64,000 bases of DNA from Polytrichum commune (taxonomy: Eukaryota; Streptophyta; Polytrichopsida; Polytrichales; Polytrichaceae): positions 53,563,169-53,627,168 of the forward strand of contig OX485806.1 of the NCBI GenBank assembly GCA_950295325.1. Reading direction: 5' to 3'. This document shows, in pieces, positions 2,771 to 59,150 of the stretch (the first letter of the stretch is position 1; every line of letters starts with the position of its first letter). Below the pieces are notes generated by a model, which was not told where the DNA came from, ran no database searches, and saw only the letters and a list, made by a program, of their open reading frames with translations. The translations under genes and the position numbers were made by a program.

Positions 2771-2947
2771 TTACCAAATTCATCGTTATTCCTACCAATG
2801 TCATTAAAAACAATGGTGTGGTCAAAATCCACTTGCACATGATCTTTGTTCCAATTTGAGCATCACAACCTTTAGGAAACCCCATGCTCAGCATCATAAC
2901 CCGCATTTGTGATACCTCAAAAATTCAACCCCTACTCTCAAACTACG
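2771..2947 (-). mobile_element. Family I 5' leader fragment
   Basis: This is the leader and start of gag of a second family I copy in minus orientation, joined to the LTR at 2948. The expected primer-binding site next to the LTR is unrecognisable (CTCAAACTACG in place of GCTCTGATACCA). It meets the plus-oriented remnant at about 2770 with no visible duplication. Confidence 0.6.
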
Positions 2948-3909
2948 TGTCGCAACCCTCGCGTGTTCTTTTTAATTAGCTTGGTTATTTTTATTTCTAG
3001 CAAAGATCATGAATGCTAACAGTTTGCATTCTGCCATATCAATGGTTAGCTCCCCATACCACAAACCTGAATGCATAGGAGGGAAAAAAACCCTCTTCTT
3101 TGCTTTCAAGATTCACCCCTTAATCAATAACCAATTCTTAAATGTGGACTTCCATCCATGGAAGTCCAATCTTATGTTGACCATTGCGTTGCCGAAGCAA
3201 CACTACAACAACCCAAACCATATTAGGCAATGTTGCCCTCATATTGGGCCAAGCCCATGGAGGCCGTGCCGTTCGGCCTTGGGTGGGTTTGGCCACACCA
3301 CCTTACACATATAAGCCTTTAGGACTTTTAGCAGGGCCCCTACCCCACCGTCAAGAAACCTTTTGTCCCTCTACTAAGAATTGGGGCCAAGTAGATATTT
3401 TCCCTTAGACGCTGGGTTTTTGAAACCCCCATCATCTTTAGAACAACATAACTTTCTTATATGATATCTCATGAAACAAGCAACCCCTCCATTATCATGT
3501 ATGCATTACGTCAATGCCAATGGACTCCTCTCTTGCCCCACTAGGACAAGTATTGAGGAAGTTATTCCTGTTCAAACCTTAGTAGTCTCAGAAGCCACTC
3601 CTAGGCCACTGCTGTCTCAGGGTGCTGTCTCGGGACAACGCCCCACTCAAAATGCCATATCTCCAAGCTCACAACTTCGATTAAAGTTCTCTTAAGCATC
3701 CTATAATTTCCATGCCATAAGCTACGCATAGCTCATGGCCTTATCATTGTCCTACTTAGTCTCCATGAATGGGAGGCGTTCTCTATGCCCAGGGCCCCCA
3801 CCCACACTAGGATCATTTGGGCCCTCTCACCAATGGCGCCACAAATTATGGGTGTCACTCCGGGGTCCAACTTGTGCCCATGGTATTTTGGGCATTCTTT
3901 CATGGAGAG
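2948..3909 (-). mobile_element. Family I LTR, old, end truncated
   Basis: It starts TGTCGCAACCCTCGC and follows the family I LTR at low identity: the TCCATCCATGGA hairpin near 3150, the CCCATATAAGCC-like segment near 3308 and the TGGCGCCACAA segment near 3832. It stops at GGAGAG (about 3909), before the usual GTGCGCGACA end. There the sequence jumps into gag, which contains GGGAGCC at that point, consistent with a deletion through microhomology. Confidence 0.75.
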
Positions 3910-4131
3910 CCTTTTCACTCCTCCGATTTCTTTACCAAATCCACCATTATTCCCACCAATGTCATTAGAATCAATGGTATGGTCAAAATACATTTGCACA
4001 TGATCTTTGTTCCAATTTGATCGTCACTAGCTTTTAAAAACCCTGGTTTCACCATCGTAACCCGCATTTTAGATAGCCATCTCTTCCTCCAAAAGCTAAT
4101 TCAAATCTAAAAACCGTGCTTTGATACCACG
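3910..4131 (-). mobile_element. Family I leader with degenerate tRNA primer-binding site
   Basis: A gag and leader fragment in minus orientation. A degenerate initiator-Met primer-binding site (GCTTTGATACCA, about 4118-4129) sits two bases before the LTR that starts at 4132. Only about 220 bp of internal sequence survive between two LTRs (2948-3909 and 4132-5106), so this is an internally deleted element. Confidence 0.7.
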
Positions 4132-5106
4132 TGTCGCAACCCTTATTAGCCCCCTTGACAATCTTAATCATTCTTCAATTCTAGCAAGGATCACAAACGC
4201 TTACCCTTCGCATTCCGCCATGCTAATGATTAGCTCCTCATATTGCAGACCTTATAGTTCATAGAAAGGGAACCAACCCTTCTACTTTGCTTTTGGGACT
4301 CATCCCTTGATTGAGAACCAATTTTAAGATGTAAACTTTAATTCATGGAAGTCCAATTTTATGTTGATCATCGCATTGTCGAAGCAACACTACAACAACC
4401 CGAACCATGCTAAGCAACTATGTCCTTACATTGGATTTATGCCCATAGAGGTTGTGCCGTTCGGCCTCGGGTGCGTTCCGCAACACCACCTCACCCAGAT
4501 AAGCCTCTAAGACTTTTGGAAACGCCCCCATCACACCATTAAGAAACCTTTTGACTCTCTACTAAGAGTTGGGGCCAAATAGACATTCTACCTTAGCCGT
4601 TGGGGCGGGAAGCCCCCAACAACTTCAGAACACCATAACATCCTTCTATTATGTTTGATGCTATAAAAAAACCAGTCTATTGTCATGTACACTTTACGTA
4701 GATCCTAATGAACTCATCAAATGCCCCATCTAAGCAAGTATTGAGGAAGTTATGCCTGTTCAAACATTGGCAACCCCAGGAGCCACTTCGAGGCCACTGG
4801 GGTAGCATGGTGATGTTCAGGGATAGCGCCCCACTAAAATTGCCATATCTCCTAGCTCACAAATCCGATTGAGGTGATCTTGAGCTTTCTAGAATCAGCA
4901 CGTCATAAGCTACTTATGGTTGATGGCCTTACCTTCTAGCCTGTTAATCTCCTTGGGTGAGAGGCGTATCCAATGCCTAGGGCCGTTACCCACACTAGGA
5001 TCATTTGGGCCCTGTCACCAACGGCGCCACAAGTCCTGGGTATCACTCCAGGGTCCCCCTTGTGCTCATGGTGTTTTGGGTACTTGTCATGGACATGTGC
5101 GCAACA
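4132..5106 (-). mobile_element. Family I 5' LTR, diverged
   Basis: It starts TGTCGCAACCC and ends GTGCGCAACA (normally GTGCGCGACA). Its leader and primer-binding site lie on the low-coordinate side, so this is the 5' LTR of a minus-oriented element. The right side enters integrase sequence of another family I element, so it inserted there; the right-hand 5 bp are CAATG. The matching left duplication is lost. Confidence 0.8.
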
Positions 5107-5224
5107 CAATGGGACTATCATATATTTCCTTCAAAATCAATAGCCTCAACTAGCCCTATGGATCATACATTCGACTTTGTTTATACTTCAACAATTTGTC
5201 CACCAACATGATTTTTTTAAGCAC
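5107..5224 (-). pseudogene. Family I integrase fragment (element C, first part)
   Basis: This corresponds to 24230-24345 of the complete element, the stretch before the integrase zinc-binding motif. The same sequence resumes at 6974 after the CACTA insertion. Too short and mutated to encode anything. Confidence 0.65.
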
Positions 5225-5559
5225 TTTCACTACTAAAGATTGTGTACAATCTAGACATGTAACAAGACATTTATTGAAGTAAACAAAGACGTGACCTAAT
5301 AGCATATATTACTAGAAAGTGTGTTGTCTACGACATATCTTGGGGGACTATGCCCTACACCCCATGGATCATCTATTTGGACATAGCCAATATGTTTAGG
5401 ACCATTGCTTATGATGTCTAAATATACTAAAAGTTTTACGGGCTCCATACTAAATTATTACTTAATGTTAAAGCGTGCATGCATGTGTAGGGCTATCATT
5501 GGTTGATATGTTGAATAATGAGTGGTCCTATTTTATAACAAATGAGTGTCATTTAAAAG

Positions 5560-5707
5560 AGATATCCACCATCTATAAGCACCTATAGTTCTAAGTGCCT
5601 AGACACTTACCTAGTAGGCTAAGCCAAGGGCGGGGGCCAAGGGATTTGATCCTTGAACCTCTTGGCTCCCACATAGAGGCCTTAGCCACTAAGCCACCAC
5701 TCCGCGC
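5560..5707 (-). repeat. tRNA-derived SINE-like segment
   Basis: On the minus strand from 5707 there is an A-box-like TGGCTTAGTGGCTAAGG and, about 35 bases later, a B-box-like GGTTCAAGGATCAAATCC with its arms CCAAG and CTTGG-type pairing. No paired acceptor stem or cloverleaf forms, so it is not a tRNA gene. The 3' end drifts into AT-rich sequence and cannot be fixed. A SINE head is the best explanation. Confidence 0.5.
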
Positions 5708-5754
5708 ATGATATATTAGAAGTATTTAAAACATTTGTATATATAGAGGCCCCA

Positions 5755-6745
5755 AGTTATTTTTTATTTTTTATTTACTGTATACAATATAATATCAACT
5801 ATATACGGCATATATTATGTACTGTCTATTATTTACTGCTTAAAATTTATTATCCAGTATTTGTTGTATACTGCCTATTATTTATTATTAAGATTCTCGT
5901 ATTTATTATTTACTGCCTCGTATTTACTGTTTATATTATCATATTCACTATGTAGAACCTAATAATCACTGTTTATAGTTTATAGTTTATAGTTTATAGT
6001 ATTTTATTTTATAGTTTATTATTATTTAGTATTTTTAGTATGTTATTATTATCTATTGTATATAGTATACTATTTACTATTTAAGGTATGATATTTACTA
6101 TTTACTATTTATAGTATATTATTACTATTAATGGTATGTTGTATATTATTTATTATTTTTAGTATGTTATTATTATCTACTGTATATAGTATATTTTTGC
6201 TATTTATAGTCTGATATGTAATTTTCAATATTCATAGTATATTAATACTATTAATGGACTTCTATTTATTATTTTCAGTATGTTATTATTATCTACTGTA
6301 TATAGAATATTGTTTTCTATTTATAGTCTGATATTTAATTTTCAATATTCATAGTATATTAGCACTATTAATGATCTTCTGTTTATTATTTTCAGTATGT
6401 TATTATTATCTACTATATAGTATTTTTCTATTTATAGTCTGATATTTAATTCTCAATATTCATAGTATATTAGCACTATTAATGGTCTTCTGTTTATTAT
6501 TTATAGTATTTTATTATTATCTACTTTATATAGTATATTATTTATTACCTCCAGTATGTTATTCTTATCTACTGTATATAATATATTATTTATTATTTAT
6601 GGTATGATATTTATTATATTAGTTCTATTAATTGTATGTTATTCTTATTTATTATTTATAGTATGTTATTTTATTATTATCGGACTTTTATTTATTATGT
6701 ACTGGAAATTGTCTACTATTTACTGTGTACATGATTCTCTACATA
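5755..6745. repeat. AT-rich degenerate tandem array inside the CACTA element
   Basis: About 1 kb is almost entirely A and T, built from permutations of TATTTATTATT, TATAGTATATT and CTACTGTATATAG. A longer period is visible: the block from CAGTATGTTATTATTATCTACTGTATATAG through TTAGCACTATTAATGGTCTTCTGTTTATTATT recurs at about 6160, 6275, 6395 and 6520. No coding potential. Confidence 0.75.
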
Positions 6746-6973
6746 CGCCCTAAAAATTACCGACCATAAATCATACAATCTAGTGGGCAAATTGTCAGAT
6801 TGTTTATAGGAGTCGTCCTATAAACAACATCGGGGCGTCAATGTGTCCACAATGACTATTTTCCAACACTTATACTAGAAATATGTCAATTTACTTTTTT
6901 TCATGAAGTGTTAGTCCAATTAGTACATGCATGCTAAAACACTGTACTAAAAACCCTTGTTTCTCTTGTAGTG

Positions 6974-7114
6974 TTTGCCATTGGAAAGCTCACTTAAAAA
7001 CGTTTGTGCTCTAGGGTTGTTGATGTACCCCTCGCTTATCTTGCATGACAAGTTTCTTTCATCGGTTACATTAGGCAAAAGAATTTAATGATCCTCGTTG
7101 CTTGGAACTCTTCC
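6974..7114 (-). pseudogene. Family I integrase/RNase H junction (element C, middle part)
   Basis: It matches about 24345-24480 of the complete element (AAGCTCAC, TTTTGTGCT, TATCTTGCAT). The next bases of the same gene are found after the LTR insertion at 9017. Confidence 0.65.
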
Positions 7115-9016
7115 TGTAGCGCACCTCTCCATGAGGAGTGCCCGAAACATCATGGGCACAAGGGGGACCCCGGAGTAACACCTCGGACTTCTGGCGCCGT
7201 TGGTGAGAGGGCCCAAGTGATCCTAGTGTGGGTGACGGCATCGGGCTTTGGGAACGCCTCCCACCCATGAAGACTAGGAGGCACGAGGGTAAGGCCATGA
7301 GGTGAGGTAGCTTATGTCATGATGATTCCATAAAGCTTAAGAACACCTCAATCGGAGGTGTGAGCTAAGAGTTATGGCCATTTGAGTGCGGCGCTGTCCC
7401 GCGACAACGCCTTGGTACAGCAGTGCATTGGAGTGATTCCCAGGACAGCCAAGGTTTGAACAGGCCTAACATCCTCAATACTTGGCTGAATGGAGCAGGT
7501 GAGGAGTCCATTAGCATTTCTGTGAAGCGTAGATAAAGATGGAGTGGTTGCTTGTTAGCATCAAACATCATACAAGGAAGTTATGATGGTCTGAAGCTGC
7601 TAGTTGCTTCTAGGCCCAGTGGCTAAGAGAAAATCTCTACTTGGCCCCAACTCTTGGTAGAGAGACAACAAGTTTCTTTATGGTGGGGTAGGGGCCCCGC
7701 GTAAAGTCCTATAGGGTTATATGGATGAGCTGGTGTGGCGTCACCCACCCGAGGCTGAACGGCACGGCCTCCATGGGCATTTTTCGCGACCCTTGCTAGT
7801 TTTTCTTCACTTAGCTTGACCGCCTTTCCAACCTAGCAAGTGCCACGAGCGTTAACCTGCACATCCCACGCACATGCATCGTTAGCTCCCAAAACCACGG
7901 ACCTTCAAGCTCATGGCTTGGTCACCAAACCCTCCTACACATGCATTCGGGACTCTCCCCTTAGTAGGTAGCCCATGGCTAAGGTGGACTTCCATCCATG
8001 GAAGTCCACTCTTGAGTTGATCATCGTGTTGCCAAAACAACACTACAACTACCCGGAGCACATTGCCAAGTATGCTCCAGGGGGGTCGGTCGGCTAAGCC
8101 GCCTCACCCATATAAGCCTCTAGGACTTTGGGCGGGGCCCCTACCCCACCATCAAGTATCCTTTTGTCTCTCTACAAGGGTTGGGGCCAAGTGGACATTT
8201 TCCCTTAGCCGCTTGGGCTAGAACCCCCCCAGCAGCTTCAGACCACCATAACTTCTACATATGATGTCAGATGCTCTCAAGCAACCACTCTATCGTCACC
8301 TACGCTTTGCATAGATGCCGATGAACCCCTTACTTGCCTCATTCGGGCAAATATTGAGGAAGTTATAGCTCTTCAAACCTTGGCAGTCCCGGGCACCACT
8401 CCCAGGTCACTGCTGTCCCGAGACAGCGCCCCACTCAAATGGCCATATCTCCTAGCTAGCACCTCCGATTGAGGTGTTTCTTAGCATTCTAGAATTCCAC
8501 CGCCATAAGCTACTCATAACTTATAGCCTTACCCTCATGACTTTTAGTTCCCATGGGTGAGAGGCGTTCTCAACGCCCGGGGCCCTCACCCACACTAAGA
8601 GTACTTGGGCCCTCTCACCAATGGCGCCACAAGTCCCGGGTGTCACTCCGGGGTCCCCCTTATGCCCATGGTGTTGCGGGCACTCCTCATGGACAGGTGC
8701 GCCACTGCATTGGCCCAAGGTGACGCCATAGTTGCCTAGTACGCTTCGGGTTGTTGTAGTGTTGCTCCGGCAACGCGATGATTAACATAGGATTGGACTT
8801 CCATGGATGGAAGTCCACATCAAAGAAATGGGTTACCGATTAAGGGGTGAGTCCCGAAAGCAAAGTAGAAGGGTTGGTTCCCTCCTATGAACTATAGGGT
8901 CCGGGGTGAAAGGAGCTAACCATTAGCATGGCGGAATGTGAAGGGTTAGCGCTCGTGACCTTTGCTAGCAAATAAATTTGGCAAGATTGTTAAGGGGGCT
9001 AGCAAGGGTTGCGACA
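7115..9016 (+). mobile_element. Family I solo LTR, TSD CTTCC, carrying a nested LTR
   Basis: It starts TGTAGCGCACC (normally TGTCGCGCACC) and ends GGGTTGCGACA. The 5-bp duplication CTTCC is exact (7110-7114, 9017-9021). The flanks join into continuous family I pol sequence; the undisturbed form ACTCTTCCGGTC is seen near 24480. No internal region is present, so it is a solo LTR left by LTR-LTR recombination. A second family I LTR (7782-8706) sits inside it in the opposite orientation. Confidence 0.9.
7782..8706 (-). mobile_element. Family I solo LTR nested in another LTR, TSD GCATT
   Basis: The ends are mutated (TTTCGCGACCC and GTGCGCCACT) but the 5-bp duplication GCATT is exact (7777-7781, 8707-8711). 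The outer LTR sequence resumes at once on the right. Its many differences from the consensus, also in the palindrome near 8411-8432, mark it as old; the outer LTR must be older. Confidence 0.88.
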
Positions 9017-9386: not shown

Positions 9387-9924
9387 AATGTGTAAAAGTT
9401 TAATTTGATTTTTTTAATTGAATTAATCTAATATTAGTGGTAAATACAAAATAAATAGTAAATATTATATCAGTTGGATAAGTTGGGAGTTAGAAATTAG
9501 CTTAGTAAATAAATCCTAATGGAATAAGCGATAACAAATTATTATAAGACTATTTTGGAATTTACTTAGCTAAAGGCAATAATCGAGTGGTTGGTAAGGC
9601 TAAATGTTTAAGATATTCCAAATACGAAATCACTAAGCGACAAAACAATTAGAAGAGTGGACTAAAATCACATTGACTAATAAGAATACTCCTTTGACTA
9701 AGCCGATTCATCTCGACGAGGGAAGATCCAATTTGACAAGTGTTTTGTGGGAGCCCAATATTCTACGGAAATACGGAAATACGGAAATACAGATCCATTT
9801 TCTGTATTTTACTCTGCTCGTATAAGGATAATAGGATCTCTTAGGGTAAATTAATTGTATTAGAAAACAGGGCGTTCTAAATCCGCTTCGCACGATAAAA
9901 ATGATAAAAAGGGGTATTGTTACT
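9387..9924. other. Unassigned AT-rich sequence
   Basis: No coding potential. It contains three tandem copies of ACGGAAAT (9765-9788). It forms the left flank of the Mutator-like element; its last bases (9916-9924) are the left copy of that element's TSD. Confidence 0.6.
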
Positions 9925-10057
9925 GGAGCGTGACTTGTATGCGAGCGATGGGCGGAAAGCGGAGAATTGGAAAGCGGAGAGCGGAAAATGGATAACACGA
10001 TCCAAATATAGAATATTTATGCTAAATTTAGTTTTCAAAATTTAGCATTTCGGAATA

Positions 10058-12840
10058 TTATATGAATATTTCCTTTTTTGGCCAATTTTTGAGACCTATA
10101 ACCGTGGATCCAGGGGGTTTAAAAATTGATACATTCCTATTTTTTTCTATTACCATGCTATCACTTTCAAGAATAATGGGCATCTGCACAGGACGAGCCC
10201 TCACAGCACGTCCTGAACCTCTTGGATGTGAGAAGTTTACCATGTCAGGTCGATGAGACTCCTCTTCAGCTCCAAGAGGTAGATCTGCCTTCCGCTTCGT
10301 GGACCCGAATACCTCTTCTCCAGCCATGCGAGGAACACGGGTACAAAACTCTTTTGCTCCAAGCATGTCCAGCATGGGGTCTTCAAGCAGTAAAGGATTA
10401 CCTGTTTGCTTCGCCCTGCGCTCTGCCATCCTTAGTTTGAGCTCTTTCTTTGTAGGGCATGTTCCGCCGACGTCACCTTTCAGGAACTGGTAGTAATTGA
10501 CAACCTGTAAGAAGCCTCGAACGAAGTCGTCAACTGTAGCAACGTAGAGGTCACCACCGCTGTTTCCAGACGCTTGAAGCCACTTGTTGTGTATTGTTTC
10601 AGCTAGATTACATGAAGGCATTTCTGCTAGTTCTTCTTCTGAAAACTTCTGCAAGTACGTAGTGGAAGTAGTTAGAGATTAGTGAAGAGTTGTTTCATAT
10701 TAGAGTACTGTGAAAAGAAGGAAAATAATATGAAATGTATTGGAAAAACATACCCCGGTCATGAAGCCTCCCCATTGGCGATAACGGTAGTGCCAGAATG
10801 CAAGCTAGAGCTCTAGTTTGTTTAGGGCCTTCTTTGTCACTGCCCCGGCGGATACCCACCATGCACGTAGCCCGTGGTACATACTCTCCGCTTCGTCCAT
10901 GGTCCTCGCCGTCCTATACTGGTGGCACATCTTCTTGTGCTGCTCCCAGAGTTCTTCGGGAATGTACTTCTCGGTATACTTAACCATAGACTGGGTCCAG
11001 TGAAACTGACAGGTTCTCTCGCGGTCGTCCATGCGGTCGTCCTTCTTCCCGTTGCCATATATGACCCAAACTGCATTCCAGTTGGCCTGGGCGCTGTTGG
11101 CCATGAAACCCTTGAAGTTGGGCTTGACAACGCCATTTCTCTCCATGACAGTATTGAGATTTTTCCAGAAAACGATCTGGACATCAGAGTCCTCAGATTG
11201 CATGTCACAACTTGCAATGGTCATGACACGGCAATATGTGGAGTCATACACGTGGCATGCCATTGTGGTCCATTGTCTTACACGTTTGACATGGTCGAAC
11301 ATCATCCAGGCATTCTCCAGATCTTCGCCGGGTTGCATACGCTTCACCAAGTCTACCCCACTACCAGGCCCGACTTCCGACATCTTGAAGACAAAAACCT
11401 TGTCAAGATCAGCCCCTTGACCTGGAAATTTGTTCTCCTAAACAAAGGCCCATAAACTGATTCCATGGAGTTTGGTGATAGAGTCCATGACACCATATCT
11501 TCTGAGGAAACGGAAGCTCATGACCTTGTTGCGGATGTTCGGAGAAGCCATGTCCTTGCATCGGTCAAATAGAGGAACAAGTTCCTCTAGACTAAGCTTC
11601 TTTGGCGGCGTGTCATCGGGTTGAAGAAGATAGTTGCTAATTAGAACTTTGCTAGCCTCCAACACCACTGCACTCTTGGTAGCCTGGGGAGTCTTCTCGA
11701 TCTGTTCTTCAATTAGGCCACTGATCTCAGCCTTAGTGTCTCTGTAGTCGCCCACCTTGACTGGGTGATCGTGAGTTCCTAGGTGGATACACGCTCTTGT
11801 ATGGTTGATTTTGCCAGCCACATAATAAATCTTTGCTCCACATGTAGCAATATATGCCGGGGGTCTTTACATACCTTGCAAACAAGAGTGGATTCAGTTG
11901 GGGGTGTTTGATTCACTACAAAGGCTTGTAGGGTACAACCTTCAAACTCTGTCTCGTTGATTTGGAAAATACGAGGACGGCGGATCAGATATTCGTAGTC
12001 CTTGTTGTTGCAACGCAGGTATGCAACGCAGTCGTTTGTGATGATGGTGGTGATGGTCTTCGTCCACATATGGCCGTCGTAACGCTTGTCCATTCCCTGC
12101 ATTGACTTGGCCTGTAACCGTGCGGCCGTGTGACCAATGGGTGGCAACTCAAATATGACGGCACCATCGAACACAGCAGGAAGGTACTCTACCCTTTCGT
12201 GTTTAATCACCGAGTAGTCTATTTTTTTAAGAATATTTTTTTTCCCAGGCATTCCGGCGAGTTGTTTAAGTAATGGTAATATGCTAACAGTATCTTGCCA
12301 CAAAGGATATACTTTAGGAGTGTTCCCACTAACTATGACCTTAGGCGGGGCCTTTGTGGGACTGCATTCTTCATCAGAAGAAAGTGTTATTACAGACTGA
12401 AATGTAATGTTTTCTACAATTGGCGTATCAAGACCAGGCTCGAGCTTGACCTTCACATCACGTGGCAGAGGAGTTTGAATGGTGCAGGTAGAGGAAGAAC
12501 GAGGAGTAAGGATCTCAGTAGACACAGCCATCTGAGAATCAGTGAGGCCATACACTCGGTAATCACCTGGATGAAGACTCCAGAACAAGTTATTGTTCTC
12601 ATCTCGCTGCAAAACCCGACTAAGGGTGTGTGTAAGCTCAGATGTGACAATGTCAAAAATATCCTCGTCAACAATAATAGTGTCTTCTCTGAAGCCGAAC
12701 CGAAGACTCAAGCGTTGTGACGTCACATAAGCTAGTCCGTTCTCCTCCATCCGAAAGGTAAGTGGGACTCTAACTCCATCAGCATAAAGGACAACCATCC
12801 CCAACTCTCCGTTAGCAGGAAAATGAGCCATGATGAGGGG
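10058..12840 (-). pseudogene. Mutator-like transposase with GCM/WRKY-type zinc-binding domain
   Basis: The N-terminal part (about 12830-11860) ends in a Cys/His-rich module: Asp-Gly-His-Met-Trp-Thr, then Cys-Lys-Val-Cys, and after a frameshift Cys-Gly-Ala-Lys, Arg-Ala-Cys-Ile-His and Thr-His-Asp-His-Pro. This is the GCM/WRKY-like layout known from Mutator-like transposases. The catalytic-like region follows (11440-10760), with Tyr-Asp-Ser, Gly-Phe-Met-Ala-Asn-Ser-Ala-Gln, Cys-Gln-Phe-His-Trp-Thr-Gln and Gln-Trp-Gly-Gly-Phe. A phase-0 intron (10649-10753, GTATGT...TTGCAG) precedes the C-terminal exon. Breaks: one base lost in a five-G run (11859-11863), stop TAG at 11438-11440, stop TAG at 10805-10807 where copy 2 has Trp. 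The N-terminus is uncertain; ATG near 12831 is plausible, and an upstream exon may exist (TTTCTTAG acceptor near 12857). The Asn in Met-Ala-Asn-Ser may replace a catalytic Asp. Confidence 0.7.
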
Positions 12841-13371
12841 AATGAGGCCTTGCACTAAGAAAAAAATATGAAAGAGGATTCTTAACATTGTGGGCCATCT
12901 ATATATTACAAATGGGCTGCCAACGATAACGACATGATCCACATGATGGATGAACTCTGAACGAAAGCTTCACTAATATTTTCAATATGGAAACAACCGT
13001 CCTTGAGTCTAAAAGTGATGGGTAACGTTGTCATGATATATATAAGTATAGCGTGCAAGTCATGGTAGACATTCTACTCGACAAGCAATTAAATATGATT
13101 ATTTGGCGCCGACTTAAAGCATAATTCATAACTAGGTCTAGAGATAGACTTCACGTTTCAAGACAGGAATAGAACGAATGACAAAGACCCAATTGGGCAT
13201 TAAATATAGGATTGTCGCTCGTGCGAACACTTGTATAAGATCTCGTGATACTCATATCCTTTGTTTTAGAATCATAAGTTATGGACTCTCGAGTGCCGTA
13301 AGATGTGTTCGGTTCAAGGGAGGGTTTTGGGAGTGCTGGAGTAGACATGCTCTAGAAGGGTGATACCTGAC
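12841..13371. promoter_or_regulatory. Divergent intergenic region between transposase and methyltransferase-like gene
   Basis: About 530 bp separate the two outward-reading genes and hold no convincing coding sequence. A TATA-like TATATATAAG lies at 13036-13045, about 330 bp upstream of the first ATG of the plus-strand gene. It could serve as shared control region, but only the TATA-like string and the geometry support this. Confidence 0.35.
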
Positions 13372-13697
13372 ATGCAGAACCATATCAAGAAAAGGAAAAA
13401 GAGAAGGAAGTTGTATTTCAGTAGCACTAAGGCATTGAAGACGAGTAAAATGGGGAGGAAGAATGTCCAACACAAAAGATACAAGACAAATGGAATTAAC
13501 AAAGTTTTAGATTTTGAAGACAGTGGGGAGAACGCAACATTGTCGACGGTAGATGAATATGAAGGTCCGTCAACATCCCGGGGCCGAGGATGTCCGTCTG
13601 GAGGTACATCGAAAGAATTGGAAACGCAGTCCAATCCTGCATCCAATCCCGCATCGGAGGAGCACAGTGCGGAGGACGAGCTTGATGGAACCGAAAG
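13372..13697 (+). CDS. Candidate first exon of the methyltransferase-like gene (basic, Ser/Glu-rich)
   Basis: An open frame begins ATG at 13372 and runs about 108 codons to a good donor (GAAAG|GTGGGT, 13697/13698). The N-terminus is strongly basic with Lys-Lys-Arg-Lys-Lys-Arg-Arg-Lys, a likely nuclear localisation signal. The rest is acidic and low in complexity (Glu, Asp, Ser, Asn-Pro-Ala-Ser repeats). It lies upstream of the next exon in the same orientation within the same transposon, which is the reason for assigning it. The splice phase does not fit directly to the exon at 14272, so a further exon probably lies between, or the assignment is wrong. I recognise no domain. Confidence 0.4.
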
Positions 13698-14271
13698 GTG
13701 GGTTTCTAGAACCTATACTTGATTCTTGTGTTCACCTCAGATTAGGGGCCAGAGTGATTCAAAAACTTCGTGACAATGAACATTTGAGTAGGACAGACAA
13801 GATTTATGGACTGCGACGGAGGAGGTGCAGGCAAATGATATCAAGTTTGGGTTCTAGACGTTTAGGGCTTTGTTTTGGCGAGTCTAAGCACAAGTTTGAG
13901 GCTGCAGGGGGCTAAGTGAGGCTCGTCAAAATCAAGATTTTAGTGGTTCCGGTTGGAAGTGAGGCTGTCTGCAGAGGGTTTTAGTTGATGCACATAGAAT
14001 GCTGGTTTTGCTTTGTAAGGGTGTAGAGGGTTGTTTTGTACAAGTCTAAGCACAAGTTTGAGGCTGCAAGGGCTAAGTGACACTCTCCATAGAGATATGG
14101 ATCTCTTTGTTTGGGCTTGGCATGTAGAAGTTATGGCCAGTAGAATGGAAGTTAGTATTCATCTTGAATTTCATGTTGTCATTTGACTATCCCCTAATAA
14201 GCTATGGCAAGGATGGTAACCTGTAAGACAACATCTAATTTCTTAAAAATGTTTCGTGTGCATGGCCTCAG

Positions 14272-16605
14272 ATAGCAGTGGAGGCTGACGAGCTCTTCTC
14301 GGGTGTTCTCATAGACCTTGGGGAAATTGTTGAGTACAATCTCGATGGCGAAGATCCTATTTTGACTATCTTCGATTACGTGGAGGCCATGAGGTGTCAG
14401 CTCTGGGAGATTGCCTTCTTCATTGAGTTGGGTGGAGATAACGGCGCTCACAAGAACAACCCCCCGGACAAGCAACATTTTTTTGTTCAAGTTGTCCGCA
14501 GAGTCCTTTACAGGTACTTTTGATACGTTCTCCTACCCATGAAGGCCATCTCTAAGGTACCCGCTTTCTTCCCTAACTACCTGGACTTCGAAAGTCCTGA
14601 TTCCATGTTCACTCCTGCAATTATAAAAATATGGGATCCAATTCACTTTCAATAGTGCGGGTGGTACTTGGATTGTCCGTTCAAGAAGCCTCTTCCCTTT
14701 GACATCACGCTCAAGGACTCCATCTAACCTCTCCTACCTTCTCCCGCTGCATCAGTTCCAAGCTCAGAGTCTCCCACACCCCCCAAGGGTGGCTCCTCCA
14801 GAAGCAAGACCGCTACTAAAGGGAGTAGGCCTCGGGGATCCAAGCGGAAGGCTGCTGAGTTGGTTGAGGAGCCAATGGACAAAGATATTTGTGTAACAGG
14901 TGGTGATTTCGGTGTTCCACCTGCTGAACTTGCAGACCCTATCAGCTCCCATCTTCCACGTGCACCTGGTCCTAAGCGTATTCATCTGGGAGTTGCTGGT
15001 CAAGCCAAACCCATCACATTCGTCCCACCTGCGTTTAAGTCAATGTCGTCATCCCAGGCATGCACCTCCTCCTCTGCTTCTCCTCGGGTTCTCATACTCA
15101 ATGACTCATTCCACATGATGTTGGATTATAAGGCGAAGCACAACAAATTCCCTTCAACTTACGATGACATGGTTGCTTTTCTAAGTGAGGTACATATCCA
15201 GCTTAATTCCCATTCAATTCAGCTAGCATGCCCTTATTCACCAATTCATTCTCTACTAAACGCTCTGGTTTTTTTGAAACAAAGGTTGGAGCATCCAGGG
15301 AATTCTTCTTCTCAAGCAAGGTGTTGCAGAAGGCTGCAGTGGACCTCATTATTGCAGAGTATCCCGATGGTTTGCCTGTCCCAGGAATTTCCAAATTTCC
15401 AGGGCAAGTTCCAAATTGGAATAAGCAGGTTGACAACTTTATCAAGTTCACAATTGGCTTTTGTCAAGGGTATCTTCACGACGACGGGGCTCTCCTCCTA
15501 TTCTATCCTGACAGCGTGCAAATAAAAAAGGAGGTTTTGAGCTTTCTCTACAACAACAATCTGGAGGTCAAGGAAGAATGGACCATCGTGAATCCTCTCC
15601 ACCTCACTCACCCTATGCATAACTCCAAGCGGGTCAGTAATTCTAGTCATTTTGTGCTCTTTAAGTTCTCACTCCTTCATGACTTGAATCACATTGCTAA
15701 CAATTCGGGGCCTATTATTGATGTCCAGACTCTGAAATTCAAAGCCATTGTGTTGGTTCGGTCTTTCTCCACACCTTTGGTTAGGCAACCGAAGGAGTTC
15801 GTCATTTCGTCTAGTGACAAATTTGAAGATGTTGACCTTGCAAATGATGACGTCCTTTTCAACATTGTCACTGCTGATACTGCACTCAAGCGCAATGACG
15901 GTGACAAGTTTTGGAGGGGCCCTAAGGAGAAGGCAGTGTCCCTGCTCCAGCTTCTAATCAGTGGCCTTAGCCCTCCCGGGGGCATTATATGTGACCTCAC
16001 TGCTGGAACTGGTATAAGCAATTTGTTCAACATTCCCATCTCTCTAGACTTAGGCAATTCAATCACATGCGACTAATTCATTTGTTTCGGTCTTTGTAGG
16101 TGCCTCGGTTCTTGCAGCACAATCTTCTAACAGGGCAATTGTGGCACTTGAGGGAGACAAGGAATTGTACGAAGAACTCCTGCATCCACTTCAGGTCGCA
16201 GCGTCGGAGTGTCGCGGGGTCGATCCAACCCACTTTGTAGACCTTGACGACGACGACGATACCCTCTCTCAACAGGGTGCAGTTAGTCTATGTGAGTAAG
16301 TCTTTTGTCATTTTAAACTTCTTTTTTGAATATGTTGCATTTAATTCGAATGATTCTAACAATCTTAATTTGTCCTTTGTTGTTGCAGTTTGATGGTTGA
16401 AGGCCGTCGCTCCGTAGACTACGGCTCACCTCGTAGTTCTAACATGCGACTTCCCTGTTATGCAGAGGATATGGCAGTAGCTTATGCCAAAAACTCTTCT
16501 CCTAGTTGTAGTGCCTCTTCTAGTCCATGTCATAGATACGATCCAAGAGTACTCAGATTCATAGATCAAAGTGCTTCGGAGAGTGAGAATGAGTTTATTC
16601 CTTGA
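14272..16605 (+). pseudogene. Beta-class DNA amino-methyltransferase-like gene, four visible exons
   Basis: Exons 14272-15189, 15285-16011, 16100-16295 and 16389-16605 join in frame across GT-AG introns (15190-15284, 16012-16099, 16296-16388). Exon 2 has Val-Asp-Leu-Ile-Ile-Ala-Glu-Tyr-Pro-Asp-Gly-Leu-Pro, where N4/N6 DNA methyltransferases have their Asp-Pro-Pro-Tyr motif IV. It continues with an Asp-Asp-Gly-Ala-Leu-Leu-Leu-Phe strand, an Asn-Ser-Lys-Arg...Ser-Ser-His-Phe-Val-Leu-Phe segment, and across the 16011/16100 junction Pro-Pro-Gly-Gly-Ile-Ile-Cys-Asp-Leu-Thr-Ala-Gly-Thr-Gly, the AdoMet-binding motif I. Motif IV before motif I is the beta-class order. Exon 1 has a Ser/Lys-rich linker with Lys-Arg-Lys. 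Three in-frame stops interrupt exon 1: TGA 14521, TAG 14653, TAA 14725, each one C-to-T step from Arg or Gln codons. The altered motif IV means activity is doubtful even without the stops. Confidence 0.6.
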
Positions 16606-16967
16606 ACTCCATTTTGTATTGGATTGTATTATTTATGTCTTTTTGATTTCCGACGCAAGTCTCATACTTGCTCTTCTTTATTTCATACTCATAATGTCAA
16701 CCCGCATTGCATTCTTCATTTATTACTGTTAATTTTTTTAGTTTGTGGATTAGCCTTTAAGTATAGTTCAAGTGTCCCTAAACAATATGGCTCTCACAAT
16801 CTTAACCGCTAGTCACAAAACAATGTAGCATCCACCCATTCCAATAAAAAGTTGGTGCCTCACACACCTCCTCCTTGTTTCATTAAATCATAAGTATTCA
16901 ATAATACTTAAGTTGCACACCACACAATACACTCCAATTCATACTACCCACTTGTATTCTTCATTTA
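16606..16967. other. Non-coding 3' region of the Mutator-like element
   Basis: AT-rich sequence downstream of the methyltransferase-like gene. I see no gene. It probably holds the 3' UTR; no single polyadenylation signal stands out. Confidence 0.45.
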
Positions 16968-17578
16968 TGTTCACCCTCTATAATGTTCACCCTCTATAAA
17001 TGTTAACCCTCGGGAGTGGATCAAAGTTAACATTCATAAATGTGTTAACAGCTAACAATCATAAAATTATTTTTTTGAGCAATATACAAATCTTAACATG
17101 TTCTAAATATAAGCAAATGTGAACAGTACCTGTGAGAGAATACAATTCACAAAATTGCAAACCCAATCCAAACTTTATTCAATATCAAGTTTACAAATCA
17201 TGGGTGAAGTATGAATCAATGGTTCTTTGGTGAGATTCATGGGCATGCACAACTTCCAAATATTTCTCAATCTGCACCAACAAACCCACGTACTTGGACA
17301 TCCACATGAACGTGTTTCCACGTACCTTCTAATGGAACTTTTCATATGCCTCCATTCTTGAACATCCATCACTAGAACTATTAGTAGCCAAACTTAGTCT
17401 TTCCAAAAGACTGTTTATGGTTGTATTTCATTCGTTAACATTTATAGAGTCAAATTTACAAAGAAGGGAGTAGCATTTTGTTAACAAGTCACACGTTTAA
17501 CATTTATAGTGTGCAATATGTGGGGAGTAGAATAAAATTAACATTTAGAAAGGGTTAACATTAATAGAGGGTGGACTG
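16968..17578. mobile_element. pogo/Emigrant-like short element
   Basis: The right end reverse-complemented reads CAGTCCACCCTCTATTAATG and the left end reads TGTTCACCCTCTATAATG, followed by a second CACCCTCTATAAATGTTAACC. TA dinucleotides flank both ends (16966-16967, 17579-17580). The ends resemble the CAGT-(n)-ACCTCTATAAATTAATA ends known for Emigrant, a pogo-derived MITE. A minus-strand stretch (about 17390-17180) has Lys-Tyr-Leu-Glu-Val-Val and Thr-Ile-Asp-Ser-Tyr-Phe, possibly a transposase tail, but it is broken. Confidence 0.5.
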
Positions 17579-17928
17579 TATGTGGAGAATTTTTTTTCAC
17601 AAACATCCTTTGTGTTTCCTTCAAATAGTAAATTTTATTTAATTTACAGTAATATGTACTATAGTACACAAGTTTGCTAATTGTATTTGTGACGTCATAG
17701 TGATGTAAGCCCTAATTTTTATTTTATTAAAATATTTCTATGTTTCAAAAATCTATAAACGTTATGAATGGGGAAATGTTGGCTTATTTCCATGGTAATA
17801 GAGTCCCTAACTCTTAAAAGTTTCTAAAAATAGTTCGATTTTTTCCCTCAATCCCGCGGTTATAGGTGCATTTTCCCTCTCAATTCATGTCTCAAATTGA
17901 GTTCTCCGCTCGCATACTAACTTTCCCC
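17579..17928. other. Right terminal region of the Mutator-like element
   Basis: Non-coding. It contains the inward part of the right inverted end (CATGGTAATAGA, CGGTTATAGGTG and CATTTTCCC in inverted order relative to the left end) and the terminal GCTCGCATACTAACTTTCCCC. Confidence 0.6.
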
Positions 17929-18124
17929 ATTGTTACCGGTCCGGCAATTGGACTAGGAGGACCATTTAATAGATTGGACTAGAGTAACGGTTACGCCACG
18001 ATTAACCAACGGTCCGGAAGTGGCGGTTACAACGGACTTGTGGCGGTTGGGGGAAAACCGTTGGTAAAACGGTTGGCAACCGTTTTCCGTTAAAACGAAC
18101 GGTAACAGGGGAAGGAAGAAGGAG

Positions 18125-21142: not shown

Positions 21143-22113
21143 TGTCGCAACCCTTGCTAGGTCCCTTAATAATCTTGCCAATTTTCGTTTCTAGCAAAGG
21201 TCACGAGCGCTAACCCTTCGCATTCCGCCATGCTAATGGATAGCTCCTTTTACCCCGGACCAATAGTTCATAGGAGGGAACCAACCCTCCTACTTTGCTT
21301 TCGGGGCTCACCCCTTAATCGGTAACCCATTTCCCCAATGTGGACTTCCATCCATGGAAGTCCAATCCTATGTTGATCATCGCGTTGCCGGAGCAACACT
21401 ACAACAACCCGAACCATACTAGGCAACTATGGCCTCACAATGGGCCAATGCCCATGGAGGCCGTGCCGTTCGGCCTCGGGTGGGTGAGGCCACACCACCT
21501 CACCCATATAAGCCTCTAGGACTTCACGCGGGGCCCCTACCCCACCGTCAACCAACCTCTTGTCTCTCTACCAAGAGTTGGGGCCAAGTGGACATTTTCC
21601 TTTAGCAGCTGGGCCTAGAACCCCCTAGCAGCTTCAGACCATCATAACTTCCTTGTATGATGTCTGATCATAACACCCAACCACTCCATCTTCATCTACG
21701 CTTCACGTAGATGCCAATGGACTCCTCACTTGCTCCATTTGAGCAAGTCTTGAGGAAGTTATGCCTGTTTGAACCTTGGCAGTCCCGGTAATCACTCCAG
21801 GCACTGCTGTACCAGGGCGCTGTCCCGGGACAGCGCCCCACTCAAATGGCCATAACTCCTAGCTCACACCTCCGATTGAGGTGTTCTTGAGCTTTCTAGA
21901 ATCACCACGCCATGAGCTACGCATAACTCATGGCCTTACCCTTGTGCCTCCTAGTCTTCGTGGGTGGGAGGCGTTCCCAACGCCCGGGGCCCTCACCCAC
22001 ACTAGGATCACTTGGGCCCTCTCACCAACGGCGCCACAAGTCCCGGGTGTCACTCCAGGGTCCCCCTTGTGCCCATGGTGTTTCGGGCACTCCTCATGGA
22101 GAGGTGCGCGACA
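21143..22113 (-). repeat. 3' LTR of the complete family I element
   Basis: TGTCGCAACC...GTGCGCGACA on the plus strand, read in reverse in the element. It contains a perfect 24-bp palindrome (21815-21838) and at least five other perfect hairpins (21341-21364, 21693-21713, 21867-21883, 21911-21932, 21970-21984). Confidence 0.93.
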
Positions 22114-22126
22114 CTCACCCCCACCA
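22114..22126 (-). other. Polypurine tract of the complete family I element
   Basis: On the minus strand TGGTGGGGGTGAG directly precedes the 3' LTR, the place and composition expected for the plus-strand primer. Confidence 0.75.
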
Positions 22127-27304: not shown

Positions 27305-28275
27305 TGTCGCAACCCTTGCTAGGTCCCTTAATAATCTTGCCAATTTTCGTTTCTAGCAAAGGTTACGAGCGCTAACCCTTCGCATTCCGCCATGCTAATG
27401 GATAGCTCCTTTTACCCCGGACCAATAGTTCATAGGAGGGAACCAACCCTCCTACTTTGCTTTCGGGGCTCACCCCTTAATCGGTAACCCATTTCCCCAA
27501 TGTGGACTTCCATCCATGGAAGTCCAATCCTATGTTGATCATCGCGTTGCCGGAGCAACACTACAACAACCCGAACCATACTAGGCAACTATGGCCTCAC
27601 AATGGGCCAATGCCCATGGAGGCCGTGCCGTTCGGCCTCGGGTGGGTGAGGCCACACCACCTCACCCATATAAGCCTCTAGGACTTCACGCGGGGCCCCT
27701 ACCCCACCGTCAACCAACCTCTTGTCTCTCTACCAAGAGTTGGGGCCAAGTGGACATTTTCCTTTAGCAGCTGGGCCTAGAACCCCCTAGCAGCTTCAGA
27801 CCATCATAACTTCCTTGTATGATGTCTGATCATAACATCCAACCACTCCATCTTCATCTACGCTTCACGTAGATGCCAATGGACTCCTCACTTGCTCCAT
27901 TTGAGCAAGTCTTGAGGAAGTTATGCCTGTTTGAACCTTGGCAGTCCCGGTAATCACTCCAGGCACTGCTGTACCAGGGCGCTGTCCCGGGACAGCGCCC
28001 CACTCAAATGGCCATAACTCCTAGCTCACACCTCCGATTGAGGTGTTCTTGAGCTTTCTAGAATCACCACGCCATGAGCTACGCATAACTCATGGCCTTA
28101 CCCTTGTGCCTCCTAGTCTTCGTGGGTGGGAGGCGTTCCCAACGCCCGGGGCCCTCACCCACACTAGGATCACTTGGGCCCTCTCACCAACGGCGCCACA
28201 AGTCCCGGGTGTCACTCCAGGGTCCCCCTTGTGCCCATGGTGTTTCGGGCACTCCTCATGGAGAGGTGCGCGACA
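27305..28275 (-). repeat. 5' LTR of the complete family I element
   Basis: 971 bp, nearly identical to the 3' LTR. On the minus strand a TATA-like GCTTATATGGG occurs (plus strand CCCATATAAGC, about 27667-27677). The palindrome lies at 27977-28000. Confidence 0.93.
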
Positions 28276-28713
28276 CAGCAGCTTCAAAACAACATAAAAT
28301 CCTTGTATGATCTTTGATGCTCATATTCAACCACTTCATTGTCACGTACACTTCACGTAGATGCCGATGAACCCTCTCACTTCCCCCATTTGGGCAAATA
28401 TAGAGGAAATTATGCATGTTAAAATTTTGGCAGTCCTAAGAGATACTCCCAAACCACTGTTGTACAAGAGCGTTGTCTTGAAATAGTGGCCCACTCAAAT
28501 TGCCATATCTCTTAGCTCACAACTCCGATTCTATAATTACCCTCGTGACTCCTAGTTTAAGCGGGTAGGAGGTGTTCCCAACTTCTGGGGCATTGTCCTA
28601 CATTAATACCACTTGGGCCCTCTCACCAACGGCACCACAAATCCATGGTGTCACTCCGAAGTCCCTCTAATTCCCATGGTGTTTCGGGCATTCCTCATGA
28701 AGAGGTGCGTACG
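28276..28713 (-). mobile_element. Older family I LTR, right part
   Basis: Continuation of 21024-21142. It starts CAGCAGCTTCAAAAC and ends GAAGAGGTGCGTAC, close to the usual GAGAGGTGCGCGACA end. It is much more diverged than the element inserted into it. Confidence 0.78.
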
Positions 28714-37339: not shown

Positions 37340-40300
37340 GTGGAGGGTCAAGAAGAATATTCTTCAGACGAACGCATTAACATTTCCGAATTGGACAAGG
37401 TGGCTAGAGTGGCTAGGAGGGTCACTAAAAAGTTCGAAAAGGAGAATGTGATTCTCAATGATAGGGAGAGACCTAATGTCGTTCATGATTTAGAGGGTAG
37501 TGATATGGGAGAATGGGAAGGACCGGAAATTCCTTTGGATGAGTTTGATGGTGTCGGCAATGCCAAAGTGGAGAAGTCAAGTGTGTATGATTTATGGGCC
37601 GACTTTAGTTCGCTCAAGGCGGACATAACCTTTGGACAACTATTGGAGATTTCATCCGTCGCACGGAAGACTCTCAAGGACGGTATGCCGGTGAATAGAA
37701 GAACTAGGAATGTGAAAACTAGAGTTGCCGCTAGAATTCAATCACAAGGAGGTCGCGATGTGAAGGCTATAGAGATAGAGGTCATCATAGTGGACAAGGT
37801 GGTTCCCAATGTACTTGTGGATGGAGGTAGTAGTTTGAACATCTTGCCGGAACACACTATGAGGAAATTGGGTCTTGGTCTTACGGGATTTTCACCTTTG
37901 ATTATAAACATGGCAAATCAAAGCTCAACCATACATTTGGGAATGATTAAGGATTGTAGGATGACCACTGGGGGAGAGGAGTATTTAGTCACGTTTCATG
38001 TGATTAAGATGCATTCCAACAAGGACACATTCTCCATCTTGTTGGGAAGGCCTTGGTTGAGAATGGCGGATGCCATAGTAAATTGGGGAGGGGCCCCGCC
38101 ATCCATTACTTATGGTCCTAAGGATAATCGAGTCATAGTGTCAATTGGGTCATTAGGAGGATGGATGAAGAAAGAATTGTACCTACCATTGGAGAAGGAA
38201 GATGTTGACAAAGCCAAGGATGAGAGAGGGGAGGCTCTAGTGGGAGTTGTTCATCCCAAAAGTCAAAACACTATCATGGATTCGGGTTCGGGAGGTTTAG
38301 GTCTTAGGTTCTACCATTATGGGCATAATGGGGAGTATGCACAATGGTTAAGGGAATATCCCGAGTCGGAGTTCGATATATTGGCAACATCTCACCATCC
38401 ATGTTTGACTGATGAAAGGATTAGTTCCAGTGGCGAGGATTGTTCGTTGTTGGAGCCATGTGAGGTGCTCACCGAAGAGGAGTGGATTTTAGGGGGTTTG
38501 ACGCCTTGGGTGGATAGTGATGTTAATCTAATACACATGGATGGGACTCAAGAGGAGGAGGCTATCTTGGAAGCTTCTAAATTAGAGGAACCTTTACATT
38601 TTTGGACTACGTCTACAGGGATAGTTGTCGGTCACGATATCAAGGATTATCCCAATGTGCCGGCGGATTGGTATAGAAACAAAGATGAGCAAATCCACGT
38701 GTCGGAGGCGGATTGGCGGTATGTGGATGTGAAGTTGAAGAATGGCAAGGTCCGCCAAATGAAGATGGGGTCTAAATTGAAGGAGAAGGAGGTTAGGGAG
38801 TATAGCGAATTGGTAGATGAATTTAGCGACAACTTCGCTTGGTCATACGATGAACTTAAGGGGATTCCTAGAGAGATGATGGAACATCGTATTCCTTTGA
38901 TTCCGGGAGCAAAGCCAATTAGACAAAAAAGAAGAAGGATGAACCCGAAATTACAATTGGTGGTTAAAGCGGAATTGGAGAGATTGTTGAAGGTCGGGTT
39001 TATTAAGCCAGTGGAAATTACGGATTGGGTGTCTCCAATGGTTTTGGTGAAGAAAAAGAACGGAAAGTTAAGGGTGTGTGTCGATTATAGGAAATTGAAC
39101 GCGTGCACACAAAAAGATCATTTCCCCTTACCATTTATCATGTTGCTACTTAAGGAGGTGGAAGGTCGTGCAAGATATACTTTTATGGATGGGTATGCTG
39201 GCTACAACCAAATTTCGATCGCCCTACAAGATATCCATAAGACGGCTTTCACTACACTTTGGGGGACTTTTGTGTGGATTGTAATGCCATTTGGGCTATG
39301 TAATGCCCCGGCTACTTTCCAACGATTAGTTATGTACATCTTCAACGACTTGTTGTTTAAATCCATGACCGTGTTTGTGGATGATTTTAGCACTCAAAGT
39401 AATGTGAGTGATCACTTACATTATGTTAGAGAGATGTTGGTGAGGTGTAGGAAGATGAGGTTAGCTTTGAACCCGGATAAAACATTTTTGGGAGTCAATA
39501 GGGTAGTATTGCTAGGCTATATTGTTAGTAAAAAAAGAAGGAAACCGGATCCGGAAAAGGTTGTGGCCATAAGCGAGTTGGAGACTCCAACCAATTCCAA
39601 AGGGACCTCTAAATTGCTAGGGCGTGTTGGATGGTACCGGGAACTCATTCCAAATTTTTCAAAGATAGCGGTCCCTATTACACAATTGCTCAAAAAAAAT
39701 GTCAAGTTTGAGTGGACGGATGCATACCAAAAGGCTTTCGAGGAGTTGAGGGATAAATTAAGTACTTATCCCGTTTTGAGGCCACCCGATTGGAATAAAC
39801 CCTTTCATGTTTTTTGTGACGCTAGCAATGTGGCGGTGGGTAGCGCACTTTGTCAATCTACGGGAGAAAAAGAAAAAGGTCAACCCATTGCTTACGCTAG
39901 CAAGCAATTGACACCGGCCGAACGAAATAATTCAACCACCGAGAGGGAATGCCTAGCAATGGTGTTCTCGGTGGAAAAATTTAGACATTACCTCTTGTGT
40001 AACCCGGTGGTCTTCTTCGTGGATCACATGGCCATTAAGTATTTGGTAAACAAGGCGGACCTAAGTGGTAGGTTAGCGAGGTGGGTTTTGCTATTAGAGG
40101 AATTTGATTACACGGTGGAATATAAACCGGGTTGCATGCACTTGCAAGCCGACCACTTGTCTAGGTTGTCGGAAAAGATGGGAGAAAATCCGGTGGATGA
40201 TAGGTTAGTGGATGACGATTTCTTTGTTGTTACTTCAAAACCGGATTGGTACGCGGGCATCGTGGAATTCTTGACGACCCAAACGTTGCCCGAGGAGTGG

Positions 40301-40742
40301 TCCAAGGAAGAGAGAAGAAAAGTGAGAATTAATAGTAGATATTTCATTGTGTTGGGACATAGGTTGTTTAGGAACGGAACCGACGGTCTACTTAGGATGT
40401 GTGTGTCCGCAACGGAGGTTCCTTCCATTTTATTGGCATGCCACGATAGCGCATGCGGTGGGCATTTCTCGGGTCAACTCACCGGCCAAAAAATTCTTAG
40501 GGCGGGTTACTTTTGGCCTACGATATTTAAGGATGCACATGATTACGTAAAAAAATGTGATGCTTGCCAAAGGTATGCCCGAAACGATCTCCGCATGGAG
40601 TTGCCACTCCATGTATCGTTACCGCTAGTTCCCTTTGAGAAATGGAGAATCGATTATGTCGGCGAAGTCCATCCCCATTCCTCAAAAGGGATGGCCTACA
40701 TTGTGTTCGCCACCGAGTACCTTACCAAATGGGCGGAGGCTA
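37340..40742 (+). CDS. Pol of the 10.3-kb element: protease, RT, RNase H, integrase N-part
   Basis: Open for about 1135 codons until the nested LTR. Protease active site Val-Asp-Gly-Gly-Ser-Ser at about residue 160. RT at about 545-720 has Pro-Met-Val-Leu-Val-Lys-Lys-Lys-Asn-Gly, Met-Pro-Phe-Gly-Leu-Cys-Asn-Ala-Pro-Ala-Thr-Phe and the catalytic Phe-Val-Asp-Asp (about 678). RNase H at about 815-940 has Phe-Cys-Asp-Ala-Ser, Thr-Glu-Arg-Glu-Cys and Asp-His-Leu-Ser-Arg. The integrase zinc finger His-Asp...Gly-His...Cys-Asp-Ala-Cys is at 1034-1077, and the first core Asp in Arg-Ile-Asp-Tyr-Val-Gly is near 1104. It is in one frame with the end of gag, separated only by the TGA at 37337. It is cut at Trp-Ala-Glu-Ala-Lys by the LTR at 40745. 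Confidence 0.9.
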
Positions 40743-40744
40743 AA

Positions 40745-53868: not shown

Positions 53869-54214
53869 CTAACAGTGAGAGTTGCATTAACATGGAATGG
53901 TTGCTGGAGTGAAAGGACACCTGTACCTCACTTGTTGATGGAGGTAGCTGCGGCATAGCTAAGTGCAGAGGGTGGGTGAAGTATACTTAGGAAGCAGTGT
54001 GATTGGTAGGAGAAGTGTTTAGGACATTGTAAGAGACTCAAGTGTTTATGAATACTTGGACGTTTTGTAATAAAGAAAACATAAAGAAAGGTGTTATACA
54101 CACCACTTCTCCCAATCCTCCTTCTTTGCTCGCATTTGTTCCTTGTATGATTGAATGTAGCCCATGAACCCTCACCCGGACTAGGACGCAATCGAAGGGT
54201 GAGGGGGATTTGGG

Positions 54215-59148: not shown

Positions 59149-59150
59149 GA

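Follow-up and report, generated by a model that had tools for sequence, protein, structure and literature searches.

The window analyzed here is a 64,000-nucleotide stretch of the Polytrichum commune genome (C4:53563169-53627168; genome of 408 Mb in 64 contigs). It carries one decayed DNA transposon at positions 9926-17928, with degenerate inverted ends and two divergent genes inside. One gene encodes a transposase and the other, the cargo, a protein resembling DNA methyltransferases. Features of the element are listed below; SAM is S-adenosylmethionine.

9916..9925, no strand: left target-site duplication, ATTGTTACTG; the register follows from exact 10-bp duplications in five other copies
9926..10160, plus: left terminal region, a degenerate inverted end, GAGCGTGACTTGTATGCGAGCG..., from the seed chain and the matching left ends of other copies
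10058..10678, minus: transposase C-terminal exon region, from similarity to a second fragment in the window at 54041-54976
10703..12969, minus: transposase frames 11779-12969, 11438-11866, 10805-11437 and 10703-10804, from relatives, profile hits and constraint
13372..13697, plus: possible first exon of the methyltransferase-like gene; phase mismatch, candidate only
14272..15189, plus: methyltransferase-like exon with a conserved N-terminal domain and basic linker; three in-frame stops in the window copy
15285..15632, plus: methyltransferase-like exon with the motif IV region (...VDLIIAEYPDGL...), from the profile and the relatives' alignment
15729..16011, plus: methyltransferase-like exon ending within the SAM loop (DLTAGTG)
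16100..16295, plus: methyltransferase-like exon completing the SAM site (ASVLAA..VALEGD)
16389..16605, plus: putative last exon of the methyltransferase-like gene, from splice signals only
17690..17928, minus: right terminal region, terminating ...CTAACTTTCCCC; identical end in other copies
17929..17938, no strand: right target-site duplication, ATTGTTACCG, in the register of the left one

Boundaries and transposase

The initial annotation had described a single transposon with inverted ends, a duplication and two divergent genes, and this is confirmed, chiefly by other copies in the genome. Its placement was nearly correct: the element starts at 9926, not 9925, and the duplication is 10 bp long, with 9 of 10 bases agreeing between ATTGTTACTG and ATTGTTACCG. 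The match ATTGTTAC, which had been offered as evidence for the duplication, is unremarkable alone (2 found, 2.09 expected).

GTATGCGAGCG occurs exactly at 9937 (plus) and 17907 (minus), and the window has no third site even allowing one mismatch. The number expected by chance is 0.24 with one mismatch, and two occurrences were seen in 2 of 100 shuffles. Three exact seeds (GTATGCGAGCG, ACCTATAACCG and TCTATTACCATG) are collinear in the first and last 300 bases of the element; AGCGGAGAA is also common to both ends, but overlaps. The score of this chain was matched in 1 of 20,000 shuffles but in 158 of 19,612 random pairs of real window segments, presumably owing to the richness of the window in inverted repeats. 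The ends alone are unconvincing because a plain local alignment between them does not beat shuffles (score 27.0; shuffles up to 30.5). The boundaries are settled because other copies reproduce the right end and the 10-bp duplication: the end ...CTAACTTTCCCC recurs at independent genomic sites with differing flanks. A non-coding segment of the element at 16980-17581 is flanked by 31-nt inverted repeats (87% complementary) and contains repeated GTTAACATTTATAGAG motifs; much of its sequence is common to other copies.

Mutator-like elements (MULEs) have target-site duplications of 9-11 bp, and the catalytic order of their transposases is D-D-CxxH-E. Here the left inverted end is about 230 bp long and degenerate, and the duplication is 10 bp in seven of the eight elements with both ends (five exact, two at 9 of 10 bases, none in the element B36). 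The window transposase is decayed, with two stops and one frameshift. It has 295 relatives at E ≤ 0.001, the best 120 of which were listed. No Pfam transposase profile matched in 41 relatives, nor in a set of 18. The "GCM/WRKY-zinc" transposase of the initial annotation found no GCM or WRKY match in Pfam; the strongest Pfam hit overall was to DUF7841, from a single relative (E 0.00078). By eye, FDHVKRV, GFMADSAQANWNAV and ERTCxFHW are conserved in the alignment, and no residue was assigned as the third acid of D-D-CxxH-E. Comparison of the transposase and of the N-terminal domain of the methyltransferase-like protein with solved structures gave nothing convincing. The element behaves like a MULE. 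The Mutator label rests on the long inverted ends and the duplication length, with no Pfam transposase match behind it, and membership is left provisional.

The methyltransferase-like protein

Profile and motif comparisons show the second gene to encode a predicted fold of the amino-methyltransferase (N6_N4) type with a recognizable SAM loop. Motif IV precedes motif I, the beta-class order that had been proposed. Pfam N6_N4_Mtase scores 27.6 bits against the domain (cut-off 26.7, E 3.4e-6), and the DNA methyltransferase profile PHROG_3008 matches at E 3.6e-9. The relatives' alignment indicates a further in-phase intron at 15633-15728, with which removed the PHROG_3008 match is E 3e-9. Sequence matches among solved structures are CcrM and DpnA (each at E 0.008) and RsrI (E 0.19). 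The exon at 16100..16295 was found after the preceding exon in all 30 genomic loci (at most six substitutions), and, by eye, distant relatives share the position of the intron within the SAM loop. No Pfam family at all was found in relatives P0001, P0008 and P0036, so no DUF1985. Three scans of viral contigs gave no relatives, and a plasmid search with P0003 gave none. The single locus obtained from bacterial and archaeal genomes (L001) was a chance match within an unrelated gene and was rejected.

The catalytic motif departs from that of known enzymes. In a census of 154 proteins, 107 fitted the search pattern, 5 of these were judged off target by inspection, and 102 were counted. Motif IV reads EYPDG in 63 and DYPDG in 12 of the 102, and [DNS]PP[YFW] in none at that place; six proteins hold such a string elsewhere. 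Among the 30 genomic loci, window included, EYPDG occurs in 22, EYLDG in 3, EYPNG in 2 and EYHDG, AYPDG and EYADG in one each, again with no [DNS]PP[YFW]; the SAM loop reads DLTAG in 25. Divergent cargo lineages have DLPEN or DIPEN at motif IV. Since phage enzymes also vary at position 2 (two of three aligned phage methyltransferases have DLPYG, the third DPPY), the systematic loss is that of the aromatic residue.

These data bear on the suggestion of the initial annotation that the element writes N4-methylcytosine (4mC) or N6-methyladenine (6mA). The protein could still methylate N4 of cytosine or N6 of adenine in DNA despite its unusual motif IV, and in this way mark element or host DNA. The fold, the beta order, the recognizable SAM loop and the purifying selection described below favor such an enzyme, as does the tolerance of change at position 2 implied by DLPYG. 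Against it, the residue at the aromatic position is D in most cases and N, E or a further non-aromatic one in the others, and E prevails at position 1. In the bdelloid rotifer N4CMT, according to the available part of the source, replacement of the Ser and Tyr of SPPY (the APPA mutant) abolished activity (PMC8885841). Because no relative examined has the canonical motif IV at that place, the evidence does not support writing of 4mC or 6mA, and we consider an active enzyme of this kind unlikely. A repurposed, perhaps anti-silencing, protein is likelier than a 4mC/6mA writer.

Copies, constraint and possible exchange of the cargo

Counts drawn from the genomic lists of methyltransferase-like and transposase loci are lower bounds. 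A divergent transposase lies within 20 kb of 40 of the 129 methyltransferase-like loci listed; shifted controls (n = 50) gave a mean of 0.44 and a maximum of 2. Paired genes are divergent in 40 cases, convergent in 2 and on the same strand in 2. Among the 38 near-complete methyltransferase loci listed, 23 are paired within 30 kb.

In seven further elements with both ends the two genes recur, again in divergent order, which bears out the claim that a methyltransferase-fold cargo lies within one pair of ends. A 10-bp duplication flanks six of these elements. It is exact in L008 (ATTGTGTGTA), L007 (GCCTTCCACA), L010 (CATCGAAGGT), L012 (ATTGACGCCT) and an element of subfamily C (ATGGTCACGC; subfamily names are our own labels), and agrees at 9 of 10 bases in L019. 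With the window, both genes lie between ends with a matching duplication in seven of eight elements. For L007, L010, L012 and L019 the gene pairing is read from coordinates and the shared duplication, the sequence covered lying to either side of the middle of the element, and these four subfamily B copies were picked for having a transposase in the probe and are not a random sample. They come from ten more B copies probed at the expected distance. The transposase was on the expected strand in these four, on the opposite strand in one (L018) and absent in five. Longer stretches of L011, L013 and L020 contained no transposase either; at L013 and L018 a divergent transposase is present at another distance. 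The right end is present in nine of the ten. The initial annotation had named three findings that would speak against such a unit, namely copies lacking the methyltransferase, genes that never share one pair of ends, and an accidental duplication; each was examined and none held.

Some copies differ in structure. The L030 copy is apparently an internally deleted element, with about 700 bases separating the 3' region of the transposase from the methyltransferase exon (2933-3513 and 1-2228). The B copy at L036 (reversed, 3812-5699) is about 1.9 kb longer than the window element in the intron that precedes the exon with motif IV. For most other B loci, the 1.5 kb upstream of this exon likewise fails to match the window element.

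Substitution ratios indicate purifying selection on the cargo. For the cargo exon pair (intron omitted), the window compared with 21 subfamily B copies gives nonsynonymous divergence (dN) of 0.027-0.040, synonymous divergence (dS) of 0.35-0.45 and a ratio of 0.07-0.10, in effect one comparison because the B copies are 96-100% identical among themselves; 5 of 29 loci were excluded for length. Comparison with three close members of the window copy's subfamily gives 0.22-0.51, as expected from decay. Transposase dN/dS is 0.05-0.12 among copies (six comparisons; one locus excluded for gaps). In many other copies, unlike the window copy, the searched exon pair is free of stops. Relative to the relatives' 80% consensus, the window copy has 31 deviations: 20 are C>T or G>A changes, 2 run in the opposite direction, 8 are transversions and 1 is multiple. 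This biased decay fits a host that methylates these copies, and the near-identical genomic copies suggest recent activity.

Mutator-like elements often carry fragments of host genes, and passive capture of a host gene or fragment (Pack-MULE type) would be in keeping with that habit. The same gene order recurs in eight elements of three subfamilies, the cargo ratio is 0.07-0.10, and the intron position is kept in distant relatives. Passive capture is contradicted because the cargo is constrained, and it is very improbable.

The cargo is not the same under all copies of these ends. L067 and L068 are transposase copies with no listed methyltransferase, 98.5% alike over 6.5 kb. One of the two, followed over a longer stretch, does have a cargo: this subfamily C element, at C6:22994013-23010178, contains a divergent methyltransferase-fold gene, 35% identical to that of the window (family-profile E 1.4e-70), with motif IV DLPEN, followed by the same right end as in the window family. 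The transposase of this element shares 94% identity with that of the window and, compared with that of B36, has a dN of 0.010 and a dS of 0.153. The methyltransferase domain of B36 is 91% identical to the window's, against 35% for subfamily C. At C3:54798066, C7:23423592 and C3:48371038, methyltransferases 31-33% identical to that of the window lie 13.7-14.6 kb from transposases that are 93-94% identical; one of the three reads DIPEN. Near-identical transposases and the same ends with very different cargo mean that the histories of cargo and transposase differ. In the L067 sequence, a tandem array of 13.5 copies of a 171-bp unit (5727-8019) lies between the transposase and the methyltransferase-like gene of a subfamily C element.

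This discordance suggests exchange of the cargo. Gene conversion that homogenized the transposase and ends would yield the same discordance; we regard it as possible, and as the less probable explanation. In metagenomes, 45 of the 120 listed transposase matches are on contigs longer than 20 kb, and none of the listed methyltransferase matches is (0 of 120 and 0 of 36). This hint that many relatives lack the cargo is not relied on here, since a seemingly cargo-less genomic copy proved to carry divergent cargo.

Such exchange would also bear on another possible role, in which the protein serves the transposition machinery as a structural or DNA-binding component and has nothing to do with silencing. 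MURB is an example of a transposition helper protein. The mostly divergent arrangement with the transposase (40 : 2 : 2) and a constraint similar to the transposase's are compatible with such a subunit. Exchange of the cargo against a near-constant transposase and constant ends would be odd for a part of the machine, and we find this role rather doubtful.

Possible role of the cargo

The reading that we favor, at about even confidence, is that of a selected methyltransferase-fold cargo that is not a usual base methyltransferase, recognizes the element's DNA, counters silencing and is exchanged as a module. The protein may no longer be a base methyltransferase, or not in the usual way. It would recognize the element's own DNA and help the element, most likely by preventing the silencing of its copies through host cytosine methylation. 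Elements would swap the gene as a specificity module, as the discordant likenesses of transposase and cargo suggest. In a more specific and more tentative form, a bacterial-type amino-methyltransferase may have turned into a non-canonical DNA-recognition protein (EYPDG or D-[LI]-P-E-N in place of DPPY, with the SAM site kept) that shields its own copies and is swapped as an interchangeable module. If the favored reading is right, the element offers a protein with which escape from silencing can be tested, and a methyltransferase fold used for something beyond standard base methylation. The suggested recent activity would make study in the living host feasible.

Several observations weigh against an anti-silencing cargo with a methyltransferase fold. 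The Pfam check proposed in the initial annotation succeeded with the domain as first delimited, but the score falls to 26.0 bits, just below the cut-off, when the intron at 15633-15728 is removed, and is a borderline 25.0 bits for a longer 533-residue segment. Single-exon relatives are weak on Pfam (11 of 24 at E ≤ 1, best 0.0061), and relatives P0003, P0254 and P0266 have no N6_N4_Mtase match. An hhalign comparison with the three phage enzymes gave E 0.0003 with a probability of only 17%. For the divergent cargo lineage, PHROGs gave no match and Pfam none to a DNA methyltransferase; its fold is therefore assigned from the family profile. The conserved EYPDG could itself be a new active site. 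As to the pairing, 15 of the 38 near-complete methyltransferase loci lack a listed transposase within 30 kb, the same distance around 50 of the 83 close transposase loci holds no listed methyltransferase, and L068 has no methyltransferase-like gene within the 9 kb inspected. B36 (L009) has both ends and both genes but no duplication.

Known transposon cargo includes TET dioxygenases, C5 or Dam-like methyltransferases, SET proteins and anti-silencing proteins whose mechanism is unknown. In the open-access literature, searched short of full-text reading, no description was found of a DNA transposon with a beta-order amino-methyltransferase. The anti-silencing role is proposed by analogy with the VANDAL elements of Arabidopsis, which, in the accessible portions of PMC5735166 and PMC10398659, are DNA transposons with a transposase and a further protein. 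There, VANC causes loss of methylation, its targets are often tandem repeats, and the transposase VANA is far more conserved than VANC. VANC has DUF1985/DUF287, whereas the protein described here has an unrelated, methyltransferase fold; the parallel is, by analogy, one of design and not of descent.

Other mobile elements share parts of this arrangement. As far as the consulted sections of a citing paper relate (PMC12730594), MuDR and Harbinger families of Phytophthora are DNA transposons that carry a methyltransferase gene, but it is a SET histone methyltransferase of another fold. Dioxygenase-carrying DNA transposons, in the same sections, likewise have a DNA-modification gene that moves between element lineages; they differ in their cargo and their transposases, and exchange is between superfamilies (PMC12730594). 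DNMT retrotransposons, DIRS elements with a Dam-like adenine methyltransferase and marine-virus DNA transposons with DNMT are mobile elements with DNA methyltransferases. In the extracts available, these are C5 or Dam-like enzymes rather than beta-order amino-methyltransferases, and the elements are mostly retroelements (PMC5890265). The rotifer N4CMT, in the portion at hand, also has a eukaryotic N6_N4_Mtase domain with permuted order, but is a host gene with an active SPPY and not transposon cargo (PMC8885841). Bacterial and phage beta amino-methyltransferases (CcrM, DpnA and that of phage Silenus) share the fold, the motif order and the SAM loop; here the catalytic motif is replaced, and eukaryotic introns and an extra N-terminal domain are present.

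Elsewhere in the window, no second methyltransferase-like gene was detected with the family profiles. A further transposase relative, truncated, lies on the minus strand at 54041-55180 (frames 54041-54976 and 54980-55180). An open frame of 1140 codons at 37340-40762 (plus) resembles, by eye, a Ty3-type retroelement polyprotein. A repeat of about 1 kb is present in at least seven places, in both orientations and up to 99.8% identical:

21143-22114
27305-28276
40745-41717
50541-51512
52876-53868
59150-60122
60499-61471

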